From positions 868,001-932,000 of the forward strand of contig AP009389.1 in the NCBI GenBank assembly GCA_000010565.1: a DNA stretch of 64,000 nt, read 5' to 3'. Both the position numbers and the translations under genes were made by a program. This document shows, piece after piece, positions 30,557 to 35,724 of the stretch (within the stretch, counting starts at the first letter, position 1; every line of letters begins with the position of its first letter). This DNA is from Pelotomaculum thermopropionicum SI. GTDB lineage: Bacteria; Bacillota; Desulfotomaculia; Desulfotomaculales; Pelotomaculaceae. The notes beneath the pieces are model-generated. The model was not told the DNA's origin and searched no databases. It saw nothing but the letters and a program-made list of their open reading frames with translations.

Positions 30557-31306
30557 ATGCCTCGTTTTTTTGTTTCTCCAGAACAAATTAAAGATGGACG
30601 CATTATTATCACCGGGCCGGACGTCGTGCATATAACCAGGGTTCTTCGCCTGGGCAGAGGGGACTGCCTGACCGTTCTCGACGGCCGGGGCAGGTCTTAT
30701 GAGGCGGTTATAGAGAAGGCCGGTGCGGCGGAGGTCGTCTGCGTGGCAGGAAGTGTAACCGCTGCAGGCGGGTTGCCTGCGGTAAAAGTTACCCTGGTGC
30801 AGGGCATCCCCAGGGGCGACAAAATGGATTTCATCGTCCAGAAGGGTACCGAGCTTGGTATGCACCGGCTGATTCCGCTTATATGCCGGCGGTCCGTGGT
30901 TAAACTGGAGGGAGACAAATCTTTCCGGCGGCTCGAGCGCTGGCGGCGGATTGCCCTGGAAGCATCCAAGCAGTGCCGCCGCCCCGATGTGCCGGAGGTG
31001 GACGCACCTGCCGGCTGGGACCGGGTGCTGGCCGGCATGCCGCCGGAGGCGGCGGCCCTGATTCCCTGGGAAGAGGAGGACGGGGAAACGCTGAAGGATT
31101 TCCTGCGGCGAAGCTTACCGAAAGAAGAGGTTTACGTTTTTATCGGGCCCGAAGGGGGGTTTGACCCCGGCGAGGTGGACAAGGCCCGGGCGGTGGGCGT
31201 CCGTCCCGTTACCCTGGGGCCGCGCATCCTGCGCACCGAAACCGCCGGCCTGGCGGTCCTGGTGATGGTTCTGTACCAATGGGGCGATCTTGGAGGTAAT
31301 GGCTGA
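30557..31306 (+). CDS. rsmE: 16S rRNA (uracil(1498)-N3)-methyltransferase
   Basis: A 249-residue SPOUT-class RNA methyltransferase acting on U1498 of 16S rRNA. It has the N-terminal PUA-like segment (MPRFFVSPEQI) and the C-terminal SPOUT knot (VFIGPEGGFDPGEVDKA, TLGPRILRTETAGLAVL). ATG 30557 follows GGAGACAAAA. Its TGA overlaps the mtaB ATG by one base. Confidence 0.95.
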   Translation: MPRFFVSPEQIKDGRIIITGPDVVHITRVLRLGRGDCLTVLDGRGRSYEAVIEKAGAAEVVCVAGSVTAAGGLPAVKVTLVQGIPRGDKMDFIVQKGTELGMHRLIPLICRRSVVKLEGDKSFRRLERWRRIALEASKQCRRPDVPEVDAPAGWDRVLAGMPPEAAALIPWEEEDGETLKDFLRRSLPKEEVYVFIGPEGGFDPGEVDKARAVGVRPVTLGPRILRTETAGLAVLVMVLYQWGDLGGNG

Positions 31307-32617
31307 TGGCTGAAAAAAGGGTGGCAATCCACACCCTGGGATGCAAGGTCAACCAGTACGAATCGGCCTCCCTAGCCGGGCTTTTCCTGGAACGGGGCTA
31401 CCGGCTGGTGGGCTTTGACGATGAGGCCGACGTGTACATCATTAACACCTGCACGGTGACCCACCTGGGAGACCGCAAGTCCCGGCAGTTGATCCGCCGG
31501 GCCTCAAGGACAAACCCCGCCGCGCTGATTGCCGTGACCGGCTGTTACGCCCAGACCAGCCCGGGCGAAATTGCGAAAATTCCCGGCGTCGATCTGGTAA
31601 TAGGTACCAGGGACCGGGCCAGGCTGGTCGATCTGGTGGAAACCGCAGTCAAGGGAAAGGGCCCGCTTTGCGCGGTCGGCGAGCACGTGGCCGGTGAAGA
31701 GTTTGAAGAGGTCCGCGCCCTGCCCGTCCAGGGGAGGGTGAGGGCATTTTTAAAAATCCAGGAAGGCTGCGACAATTTTTGCACATACTGCATAATCCCT
31801 TACGCCAGGGGCCCCATGCGCAGCAGGCGCCCGGAGAGGGTGCTGGAGGAGGCGCGGGAACTGGTTAGGTCCGGTTACAAAGAGATAGTTCTCACCGGCA
31901 TCCGCACCGGGGCCTACGGGCGGGACCTGGGCGAAAGCCTTACCCTGGCCGGGCTTATGCGCGACCTGGCCGGCGTTTCCGGACTGCTGAGGCTGCGCCT
32001 GAGCTCGATTGAGCCAGTCGACATCACTGACGAGCTGATCCAAACCATGGCCGGCCTGGAGGTTTTCTGCCGGCATTTGCACGTGCCTGCAGAGCGGCGA
32101 CGACGCCGTCCTGAAAAGGATGGGGCGCCGCTACACCGCCTGGGAGTATTACCGGCTGGCCGAAGTTTTGCGCGAAAACCTGCCCGGCCTGGGCCTTACC
32201 ACCGATGTGATGGTAGGCTTTCCAGGGGAGACCGGTGAGAACTTTGCCAATACCTGCAGGTTCATTGAAAAGGTGTCTTTCAGCAGGCTGCACGTTTTCA
32301 AGTTTTCCCCCCGCAGGGGGACGCCTGCCGCAGGGTTTGGGGACCAGGTGGAGCCGCCGGTCAAGGAAGAGCGCAGCCGCGCCCTGCTGGAGCTGGGAGA
32401 AAAGCTCTCGGCCCGATTTGCCTCGTTGCACATCGGCCTTGAGCTGGACGTTCTGGCCGAGCAGCCCTTTCAGGAGAGAAGCGGCCTGTACGAGGGGCTG
32501 ACCGGCAATTACCTGAGGGTTGTTTTCCCCGGAAATGACGAACTTAAGGGAAAAATAGTCAGGGTGAAGGCCGAAAAGCTCAGGGACGGCCTTCTGGAGG
32601 GCAGCATTATTATTTGA
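31306..32617 (+). pseudogene. mtaB: tRNA t6A37 methylthiotransferase MtaB, split by a frameshift
   Basis: MtaB adds the methylthio group to N6-threonylcarbamoyladenosine at position 37 of tRNAs. The N-terminal half has the three UPF0004 cysteines (HTLGCKVNQ, NTCTVT, TGCYAQ) and the radical SAM motif CDNFCTYC. After CRHLHVP the frame breaks at about 32088. Reading on gives an arginine-rich tail ending at 32238, whereas the correct continuation QSGDDAVLKRMGRR through VGFPGETGENF and the TRAM domain lies in another frame to 32617. The sequence CCTGCAG stands where CCTCTGCAG would restore the frame, so 2 nt appear missing. The cause could be a sequencing error, a true mutation or, less likely, recoding. 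No slippery site is evident. Confidence 0.9.
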
Positions 32618-33426: not shown

Positions 33427-34689
33427 TTATTGAATCCGGCCTGTGCCGATCATTCTGGAAAGCCGCCGGGTTTCCTGGCAAACCGCCCAGAAAAGGCAGT
33501 TTTCCTCCGATGCGGTAAAATGGCTGCCGGTTTGCTCAAAGTTTACGGCGTAGCATCCCCCGGTGCATTTTCTTGAACACCGCTTGCAGTGCCGGGGCTG
33601 ATGGACGGCGGGGTGCCGGAAAGGCTCCAGCAGCTTTACGTCAATCCCCGAGTTTACGTTGCCTATTATATATTTGCCTGCTTCTTCAGTCAGGCCGAGC
33701 ATTTTTGAACAGGGGCTCACATCCCCGTTGGGCGCCACGGCCAGGGAGGTGCTGCCGGCCCGGCAGCCCCAAAACCCGTATTCGCTTTCATCTTTCTCAA
33801 ATTCTTCGATGAACAGCGGAATCCCCCGGCGCCTCAGGCGGTGGTAGTCCAGCAATATTTTCACCAGGCCGAGGCCGTACCGTTCTACCTGCTCCCTGGT
33901 CCAGCGCCTTGCACCCTGGGCCGGGGCGATTATGAACTGGTTAATTCCCATGCCAACCAGCACGCTGTAGTCCTCCCACATTGTATCTACAGCTTCGGTG
34001 CTGACGGTCATTCTCGCCCCCAGCCAGGGCTGGTACTTTTTAATGAGCGGGATCAGGCCGGCTATTTTGTGCCAGGTGCCTTCCCCGCTTTTGGTCCGGC
34101 GGTAGCGGTCGTGGGTAGCCGGCCCGCCGTCGATGCTGAGAAGCATGCCGATTTTATGTGAGGCAAAGAATTTCAAGATGTCTTCATTGATCAGGGTGCC
34201 GTTGGTGGTTACCGACCAGGTGACGCCCAGATTCCGCTTCCCGGCGGCTTCCAGAGCATAGGGCACTATTTTTTTAATCAGTTCGAACTCCAGCAGGGGC
34301 TCGCCGCCTATTAAAGTGATGTTGACGGCCGGATACGCCGCCCGCTCTACCAGCAGGTCAACGGCATTTTTGGCCGTGGCGAAAGTCATCCGGCCGGCCG
34401 GGCTTTTGTCGTGAATAAAGCAGTACTCGCAGGCCAGATTGCAGTTAAAGGTCAGGTTCAGCTCAATTCCCGCCAGGCCCGGCCAGACCGGCTCCGGCCC
34501 GGGCTTTATAAAAGAAGCAAGCTTTTCGGCGTCTTCCGGCCTTATCAGAAAGTTTTCCGCCAGGGCTGCGGCAAGAGCCCGGGGGGAGTACCCGGGGTTG
34601 GTTCCGGTGTACTCCCCGATAAAAGCTGTAACCGAATTTAACCAGGTGTTCCGAATTGACGGCGTTTTGACGTTTCTTTGCCCTCTCAT
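33427..34689 (-). CDS. Radical SAM/SPASM peptide-maturase-like enzyme
   Basis: A 420-residue radical SAM enzyme. Residues 83-90 read CNLACEYC (CxxxCxxC). A (S/T)xGGEP-type motif appears as LIGGEPLLEF. The C-terminal SPASM-type cysteine cluster includes NGDVSPCSKM, CKRCSRKCTGGC and a final ENCLFWAVC, ligands for auxiliary iron-sulfur clusters as in sactipeptide, ranthipeptide and quinohemoprotein maturases. The first ~70 residues could be a RiPP recognition element or peptide-binding region. Its ATG overlaps the TGA of the Cys-rich protein gene (ATGA), so the two are made together. That protein is the obvious substrate; thioether formation at its cysteines is inferred. Confidence 0.88.
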   Translation of the reverse strand: MRGQRNVKTPSIRNTWLNSVTAFIGEYTGTNPGYSPRALAAALAENFLIRPEDAEKLASFIKPGPEPVWPGLAGIELNLTFNCNLACEYCFIHDKSPAGRMTFATAKNAVDLLVERAAYPAVNITLIGGEPLLEFELIKKIVPYALEAAGKRNLGVTWSVTTNGTLINEDILKFFASHKIGMLLSIDGGPATHDRYRRTKSGEGTWHKIAGLIPLIKKYQPWLGARMTVSTEAVDTMWEDYSVLVGMGINQFIIAPAQGARRWTREQVERYGLGLVKILLDYHRLRRRGIPLFIEEFEKDESEYGFWGCRAGSTSLAVAPNGDVSPCSKMLGLTEEAGKYIIGNVNSGIDVKLLEPFRHPAVHQPRHCKRCSRKCTGGCYAVNFEQTGSHFTASEENCLFWAVCQETRRLSRMIGTGRIQ

Positions 34690-35615
34690 TTGTTTTTGTC
34701 CTGCTCTTCTTTTTTAACCGAGAGCTCTGTCGGCGGCAGCGGCTGGGACAGGGGCGCCCCCGGTGCGGATGCCGTCCCCGGCGGCCCCGCTACGCCGATG
34801 AACTGCTGGCCGGGGCAGATGAAGCCTCCCGGGGCAGGACAGACCGAGCCTCCGAACTGGAACGGCCTGCACTGGAACTGAAATGGTCCGCAGGTCGGCA
34901 GGAACGGGAAGGGAACGCAGGGCAGCCCGAACTGGAAGGGCCCGCAGGGCTGGCCGAACTGGAACGGCCTGCACTGGAACTGGAAGGGCCCGCAGGGCTG
35001 GCCGAACTGGAAGGGGCCGCAGAAGAAAGCCGGGCAGCCGCCGCCCTGGGGAAAGCCGGGAACGTAGCTGCCCGGGCAGGCAAAGGAAAAAGTGCAGGTG
35101 TCGGGCGGCCTGCAGATATAGCTCTGGGCGCAGGTGAAACCGGGAAAGGCGGTGCAGGCGATCTGGGCTTTTGCCTCTTCGTACCCGCCCTGGCCGGGAA
35201 CTGCCGCCCCGCTCCCCGGCATGAAACCGTAAAACTCCGTTATGCAAGGAACCCCGCCGCCGCTCAGGTCGACAAAGCTGCCCGGACAGATAAAACCGGC
35301 AAAGCAGGAATGCGGCGGCCGGCAGGTGTAGCTGACGGGACAGCTAAAGCCTGCCGCGCTCAGGCACACGTACTGGGCTTTGGCACTTTCCCTCAATTTT
35401 TCCGCAATGTCCTTCATTTCATCTTCCGTTAGGGAGCGGGCGGCCGGTTCCCAGACAATCTGAACGGCATTTAGCGGAATGGTGGCGGTTCCCTCGTCCG
35501 TTCCCAGGCGCACAAACTGTTCATCCGCTGCGAGCACCGTCCCTGTTACCACTCTTCCGTTTACCAGTTCAAGAACGACTTTTTTCCCCTGGTTTGCCTG
35601 AAGCTGTGCTAACAA
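34686..35615 (-). CDS. 21-cysteine repeat protein with Sm-like N-terminus, candidate RiPP precursor
   Basis: A 309-residue protein. The frame opens at TTG 35624, but TTG 35615 is 8 nt from AGAAAGGGG and is preferred. Residues about 5-60 resemble an Sm/Hfq-like barrel (KKVVLELVNGRVVTGTVLAAD, then IPLNAVQIVWEP). A helix ending AKAQ leads to two homologous Cys modules sharing GF(S/T)C, CRPP, (S/T)C and CPGS(F/Y)V. A short run of C(G/R/V)PF(Q/P)F units follows and a proline-rich, charged end closes the chain. There are 21 cysteines in all, most spaced 4-9 apart. No signal peptide is visible. It is coupled to a radical SAM/SPASM gene, which suggests post-translational cross-linking. A spore-coat structural role is an alternative. 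I know no named family for it. Confidence 0.82.
   Translation of the reverse strand: MLAQLQANQGKKVVLELVNGRVVTGTVLAADEQFVRLGTDEGTATIPLNAVQIVWEPAARSLTEDEMKDIAEKLRESAKAQYVCLSAAGFSCPVSYTCRPPHSCFAGFICPGSFVDLSGGGVPCITEFYGFMPGSGAAVPGQGGYEEAKAQIACTAFPGFTCAQSYICRPPDTCTFSFACPGSYVPGFPQGGGCPAFFCGPFQFGQPCGPFQFQCRPFQFGQPCGPFQFGLPCVPFPFLPTCGPFQFQCRPFQFGGSVCPAPGGFICPGQQFIGVAGPPGTASAPGAPLSQPLPPTELSVKKEEQDKNK
34852..35021 (-). repeat. In-frame tandem repeats coding CxPFQF units
   Basis: The minus strand encodes seven successive units of seven or nine residues, alternating C(G/V)PFQFGQP-like and CRPFQF-like forms. At DNA level, blocks such as CCGAACTGGAA and GGCCCGCAGGGCTGG recur almost unchanged. The repeats stay in frame and preserve the Cys-Pro-Phe pattern, so expansion and contraction would change unit number without breaking the protein. 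Confidence 0.85.
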
Positions 35616-35724
35616 AACAAGCAACCCCTTTCTGGGTTTTTCATCCTTATAAGTCAGACTATGCTAGGACGTTTCGTTTTGTTAATGCAAATCGCATGTA
35701 ACAAGGGTGTAAGCGTAAAAAAAT

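Follow-up and report, generated by a model that had tools for sequence, protein, structure and literature searches.

A radical SAM/SPASM enzyme paired with a long Cys-repeat protein bearing an Sm/Hfq-like head: a candidate cross-linked spore protein of Pelotomaculum and relatives

Pelotomaculum thermopropionicum SI encodes a radical SAM/SPASM enzyme whose gene overlaps that of a long, Cys-rich protein with an Sm/Hfq-like head, and in the tail of that protein, as in the tails of its relatives from other spore-forming bacteria, nearly every Cys is followed three to six residues on by an aromatic residue. The reading we prefer, at a probability of roughly 0.55, is that the two genes form a module making an enzymatically cross-linked structural protein, held by Cys-aromatic thioethers and destined for a spore layer. 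Radical SAM thioether chemistry is known mainly from small peptides. Searches of the open-access literature for Hfq- or Sm-like RiPP precursors, for spore-coat radical SAM RiPPs, and for this organism together with radical SAM found no described member of the system, which counts as weak evidence.

The locus and its two genes

The window, the whole stretch of DNA that was analysed, comprises 64,000 nucleotides of the complete host genome (3,025,375 bp); the closest relatives by sequence are Pelotomaculum, other Desulfotomaculaceae, Desulforamulus and Sporomusa. The features under discussion all lie on the minus strand, and are listed with the evidence for each.

35655..35682 (-), SigK-like promoter: ACAAA, spacer, CATAGTCTG (motif search of upstream regions)
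34686..35615 (-), substrate protein, 309 aa, 21 Cys, TTG start (ORF and RBS check)
35445..35615 (-), Sm/Hfq-like head, residues 1-57 (AlphaFold2, Foldseek, Pfam LSM)
35379..35435 (-), helix after the head (SLTEDEMKDIAEKLRESAK), candidate leader helix (cross-genus conservation, AlphaFold2)
35262..35366 (-), Cys module 1, residues 84-118 (tail split at Cys)
35046..35156 (-), Cys module 2, residues 154-190, a duplicate of module 1 (alignment)
34842..35021 (-), seven CxPFxF units, residues 199-258 (repeat analysis)
34791..34841 (-), conserved C-terminal cap CxxxGGFxCxGQQFIG, residues 259-275 (conservation across substrates)
33427..34689 (-), radical SAM/SPASM maturase, 420 aa (ORF, Pfam, NCBIfam, fold match)
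34420..34443 (-), radical SAM CX3CX2C motif CNLACEYC (Cys invariant in 16 sequences)
33496..33765 (-), SPASM region with seven cysteines of auxiliary clusters (invariant in 16 sequences)

The substrate stop codon (34686-34688) and the enzyme start codon (34687-34689) share an ATGA overlap, and a spaced ribosome-binding site, AGAAAGGGG, stands 9 nt upstream of the substrate's TTG start at 35615; an alternative TTG start at 35624 would give a protein of 312 aa. Both open reading frames were found where an earlier note on this DNA had placed them, as a 309-residue, 21-Cys protein and an enzyme overlapping it by ATGA. Elsewhere in the window, at 31306-32617 on the plus strand, the tRNA methylthiotransferase gene mtaB consists of two overlapping ORFs, as compared to a single ORF of ~1.4 kb in relatives (L063, L068, L107), an arrangement that reflects a frameshift either in this genome or in its assembly.

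The enzyme matches the Pfam families Radical_SAM (1.7e-14) and SPASM (7.8e-06). Its best NCBIfam model is PapB (NF047865; 207 bits, E 4.2e-61, against a curated cut-off of 340), followed by a QhpD-type maturase (165 bits), a Nif11-peptide maturase (163) and the SCIFF maturase (TIGR03974; 145 against a cut-off of 425); no NCBIfam equivalog cut-off is reached, and the cyclophane models score ~70 bits, lower in the list. By sequence and by fold the nearest solved chain is CteB, 5wgg (Z 31.6 by fold, over the part of the enzyme after its N-terminal 60 residues). These best models point to the thioether-forming branch of SPASM maturases. No RRE or PqqD was matched in the enzyme by Pfam at E up to 1, and its N-terminus, the usual place of an RRE in such enzymes, is modelled by AlphaFold2 as three helices that lack a beta wing (block pLDDT 66-84 over residues 11-60).

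The substrate begins with a predicted Sm-like barrel. Residues 1-50 reach a pLDDT of about 90 or more in an AlphaFold2 monomer prediction, with the short N-terminal helix and bent beta sheet that define the Sm fold, and nearly all top matches in a Foldseek comparison with the PDB are Hfq, at a probability of 1.00. The Pfam LSM model gives E=0.009 and 16.2 bits for the full substrate and 19.3 bits for the window head alone, both under the gathering score of 23.4; it matches 17 of 19 heads, with a best E of 9e-05. The head thus appears Sm-like weakly by sequence and clearly by predicted structure. The earlier note's expectations of an Sm/Hfq-like domain in the place of a leader, and of a thioether-type maturase with auxiliary-cluster cysteines, were both supported: the Hfq fold was recovered over the first ~55 residues, and the seven SPASM cysteines are invariant in 16 sequences, with PapB, QhpD and SCIFF among the top models. 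After the head comes a helix whose pattern, SLTEENMxxxAxxLR, is recognisable in most lineages, the distant L077 included.

Co-occurrence and genomic context

Matches to the head (E<1e-15) and to the enzyme (E<1e-60) fall in the same 19 of the 113 genomes of the class, with weak head matches (E about 1e-4 to 1e-5) in G004, G028 and G111 lying outside this strong set. Within the family, the substrate is present in 14 of 25 genomes and a close enzyme in the same 14 (at 67-72% identity, the window genome itself excepted), and neither gene occurs in the remaining 11. In the class of G218, heads were found in three of 20 genomes and the enzyme in two of those; the third, a 71%-complete assembly, is the sole genome found with a head and without the enzyme. 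Among 380 genomes of the Sporomusa class the head occurs in three: Sporomusa malonica and G790, both with the enzyme adjacent, and G791, where a decayed remnant of the pair (L118 1477-1976) keeps the Sm head and, after it, the C-terminal portion of the enzyme, but neither the Cys tail nor the first half of the enzyme. The pairing of enzyme and substrate, which the earlier note had proposed to trace through relatives, is well supported, and homologues lacking the enzyme are not routine. In the assembly of G076 (L073 and L074), substrate and enzyme are both frameshifted, through co-decay or sequencing error.

The 14 loci compared lie in several unrelated neighbourhoods, and the pair alone is common to all of them; no protease, transporter or immunity gene recurs beside it across the 14. 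One enzyme is accompanied by further Sm-headed substrates elsewhere in G006-G010, G014-G016, G082 and G218; such paralogues with the same head, found elsewhere in the genomes of related species, had been missed in the earlier note. At the Desulforamulus loci L066 (3879-4142), L069 (410-694) and L070 (3678-3992), a conserved CxxC-rich protein of ~90 aa is encoded upstream of the pair; it was not noticed in other genera.

A Cys-aromatic code in the tail

Cys modules 1 and 2 share 21 identities over 43 aligned columns, and the CxPFxF run corresponds in the DNA to a 27-bp tandem array of 5.7 copies (34875-35022). The duplicated modules and the CxPFQF run of the earlier note are therefore both present, but CxPFQF itself was ruled out as the invariant of the family, since it is absent from several lineages, and what is conserved instead is a Cys and then an aromatic residue. 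Of the 20 Cys that the window substrate has beyond residue 85, 18 are followed by an aromatic at +3 to +6; this spacing is not due to chance, because none of 10,000 shuffles with fixed Cys reaches 18 (mean 9.7). Over 37 distinct substrates, F, Y or W stands at +3 to +6 for 573 of 629 Cys, as compared to 318 +/- 10 in shuffles that preserve composition and leave every Cys in place. The commonest position is +4, aromatic for 292 of the 629 (110 +/- 10 in shuffles). In 33 more Cys the missing aromatic is replaced by His or Asp at +4, mostly in a fixed unit of the CRPPD/CRPPH type, leaving ~4% of Cys with neither an aromatic at +3 to +6 nor H/D at +4.

Around this code the tail units differ widely by genus: CGPFQFGQP, CTFNFQQP, CTAQYMQP, CYQAYAQP, CFERFGQP, CRERFGPPP and CHHRYD all occur, and the longest tails hold up to 27 Cys. 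In the CRERF units of L077, the distance from C to F is always 4 and the distance from F to the next C is variable, and so the pairing points to the downstream aromatic; an acceptor upstream of Cys was ruled out, as Cys stands at varying distances from the aromatic before it and at an almost constant distance from the one after it. Where genera use C-x3-[FY] units, no position other than Cys and the +4 aromatic is fixed. When related substrates are compared, Cys is conserved at 181 of 182 positions and the acceptor remains an aromatic residue at 214 of 222, while the rest of the tail is 79% identical. The Cys-then-aromatic invariant points to the aromatic as the probable acceptor, the identity of which is ambiguous in Phe-rich units, where aromatics stand at both +3 and +5.

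Two Sm-headed paralogues extend the range of tails. One (L099 2007-2630, in G007:C18) has a His/Asn/Tyr-rich tail of C-x3-Y units, chemically unlike every other tail, in which 12 of 14 Cys have an aromatic at +4. The other, L098, is a protein of 119 aa with one unit alone, PCNFPFQY. For the window substrate, AlphaFold2 gives no confident structure to the tail as an unmodified chain, with pLDDT mostly under 45.

Promoter and sporulation link

In Bacillus, promoters of the late mother-cell factor SigK consist of AC, about 16 bases, and CATANNNTA; a literature search for this consensus found nothing. Of 28 distinct upstream regions, which come from relatives and are not independent, 24 carry the element AC-N15-18-CATANNNT[AG] ~85 bases upstream of the head, as compared to 0.83 +/- 0.96 in dinucleotide shuffles. 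Its strict TA form is found in 11 of the 28, the window copy ending in TG, and the tight pattern has 35655-35682 as its only site within the window. The element recurs in three of four further substrate loci from the class of G218. With the Bacillus consensus applied, the upstream element resembles a SigK, late mother-cell promoter.

The gene for SigK itself lies outside the window, in two pieces (G000:C1:1160156-1165067) that match profile positions 6-122 and 111-227 and are ~4.2 kb apart, an arrangement reminiscent of interruption by a skin element. An absence of sigK from this genome was considered and ruled out, the low score being traced to the split gene; in several pair-bearing genomes the intact sigK model is likewise under its cut-off. 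The suggestion that the product is a spore protein, made in the earlier note as one example, has gained from the SigK-like promoter and from the finding of sigK in two pieces, and a structural spore protein is now the likely product.

Proposed mechanism

Late in sporulation, the mother cell would express the substrate from the SigK-like promoter as a chain made up of the Sm/Hfq-like head, the conserved helix and a long tail, every unit of which has a Cys and, three to six residues on, a Phe or Tyr (in some units His or Asp). The head, the helix or both would serve as the tag by which the enzyme recognises its substrate. Proceeding along the tail, the enzyme would take a hydrogen from the aromatic acceptor, most likely at the beta (benzylic) carbon, the position at which PapB acts on Asp, or alternatively at the alpha carbon, and the acceptor carbon would then be joined to the Cys sulphur, giving one thioether (-2 Da) per unit and turning the tail into a string of small rings. 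The product would be neither cut nor exported. If the heads ring up as Hfq does, six or so stiff arms may be displayed for assembly of a spore layer.

One Cys-aromatic thioether per unit is proposed because the spacing and repeat logic match those of PapB, which, in C-X3-D units, makes its link between Cys and the Asp beta carbon and tolerates spacings from X0 to X6 (PMC9413430), and because Phe, Tyr and His are known thioether acceptors, at the alpha carbon, in the sactipeptides subtilosin, thuricin CD and thuricin Z (PMC8172795). Since no protease or exporter recurs beside the pair, its simplest role would be to supply the spore coat or outer layer with a cross-linked protein that is left uncleaved.

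Alternative explanations

The same pair could form a thioether whose sulphur sits on the alpha carbon of a neighbouring residue, as in sactionines, with the aromatics only shaping the substrate. Alpha-carbon enzymes tolerate many acceptors, among them Asp, Thr, Tyr and His in thuricin Z and Asn, Glu and Arg in RumC2 (PMC8172795), and the Phe pair at +3 and +5 brackets a variable +4 residue. Such a link is nevertheless unlikely, given that the aromatic at +4 is alone fixed besides Cys in the C-x3-[FY] genera and that PapB and QhpD, whose thioethers are not at the alpha carbon, are among the nearest families. A second alternative is that the enzyme forms carbon-carbon links of the cyclophane type, between two aromatics or an aromatic and another residue, and that Cys is otherwise employed. 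SPASM enzymes do make cyclophanes, their families appear in the NCBIfam list, and many units contain FxF or YxY motifs; but in lineages keeping C-x3-[FY] most units lack FxF, Cys is the most conserved tail residue (181/182), and the named cyclophane models reach some 70 bits where PapB has 207, all of which makes this chemistry distinctly improbable.

Disulphide-joined Cys-rich coat proteins are common in Bacillus, and that precedent, together with tails that are repetitive and variable, would suit an ordinary disulphide-linked or metal-binding spore protein beside an enzyme that targets something else. We consider this very improbable in view of the strict co-occurrence and gene overlap with the enzyme, the joint decay of both genes at the G791 remnant locus, and the directional Cys-to-aromatic spacing, for which disulphides and metal sites have no need. 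Little probability indeed attaches to the idea that the pair makes a secreted natural product of the RiPP type, an antimicrobial or a signal, from an unusually long precursor. The enzyme family is typical of RiPP clusters, yet a dedicated protease, transporter or immunity gene is absent across the 14 loci, the promoter is SigK-like and the tails are very long, with up to 27 Cys; a secreted product was set aside on the absence over those loci of any accessory gene recurring with the pair.

Significance and comparison with known systems

Beyond the cross-linked spore protein preferred here, one may tentatively envisage a new class of cross-linked structural protein, in which an Sm/Hfq-like head acts as tag and possibly as assembly hub, each chain receives up to about 20-25 Cys-to-Phe/Tyr thioethers from a dedicated radical SAM enzyme, and freely evolving tails yield a covalently stapled spore coat polymer. 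If so, radical SAM thioether chemistry would also build large structural proteins, with aromatic acceptors and with a folded Sm domain replacing the leader peptide. Because its tails vary freely while several substrates share one enzyme, such a system would open a way to programmable stapled protein polymers, and it might explain in chemical terms how spores of thermophilic and syntrophic anaerobes come to be tough. The paralogue L098, a natural single-unit substrate, is the simplest system for assay by co-expression and mass spectrometry.

Among known systems, the Cys-rich coat and crust proteins of Bacillus are alike in being Cys-rich and repetitive, with mother-cell expression expected; our searches found no homology of the substrate to them, and they are not known to have a dedicated radical SAM enzyme. 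Hfq and Sm proteins share the fold of the substrate head, which is here fused to a Cys-rich tail, and the likeness rests on fold rather than RNA binding. CteB, which acts on CteA, and the SCIFF maturases provide the closest solved fold to the enzyme, that of a clostridial thioether enzyme; the precursor in SCIFF systems is a short peptide that has six Cys within about 45 residues, and CteB has an N-terminal RRE. QhpD, the second-best NCBIfam match, is a SPASM enzyme that forms intraprotein thioethers in a functional protein and not in a small product; its substrate is a subunit of an enzyme, quinohemoprotein amine dehydrogenase, not a repeat protein, and lacks an Sm head. Its acceptors are Asp/Glu (PMC8326336).

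PapA/PapB, the system of the ranthipeptide freyrasin, shares with the present pair a SPASM enzyme, repeated C-X3-acceptor units, tolerance of ring size and, as we infer here, one thioether per unit. A ranthipeptide-like product, as the earlier note had also envisaged, thus agrees with the C-X3 spacing but not with the acceptor, which is not Asp/Glu, nor with the PapB cut-off, which the enzyme does not reach; +4 is F/Y/W for 292 of 629 Cys, in place of the [D/E] of C-X3-[D/E]. The present system also differs in having no detectable RRE, no export genes and a mother-cell-type promoter, and above all in what would be modified, a far longer substrate with a folded Sm head and, probably, an aromatic acceptor instead of Asp/Glu.
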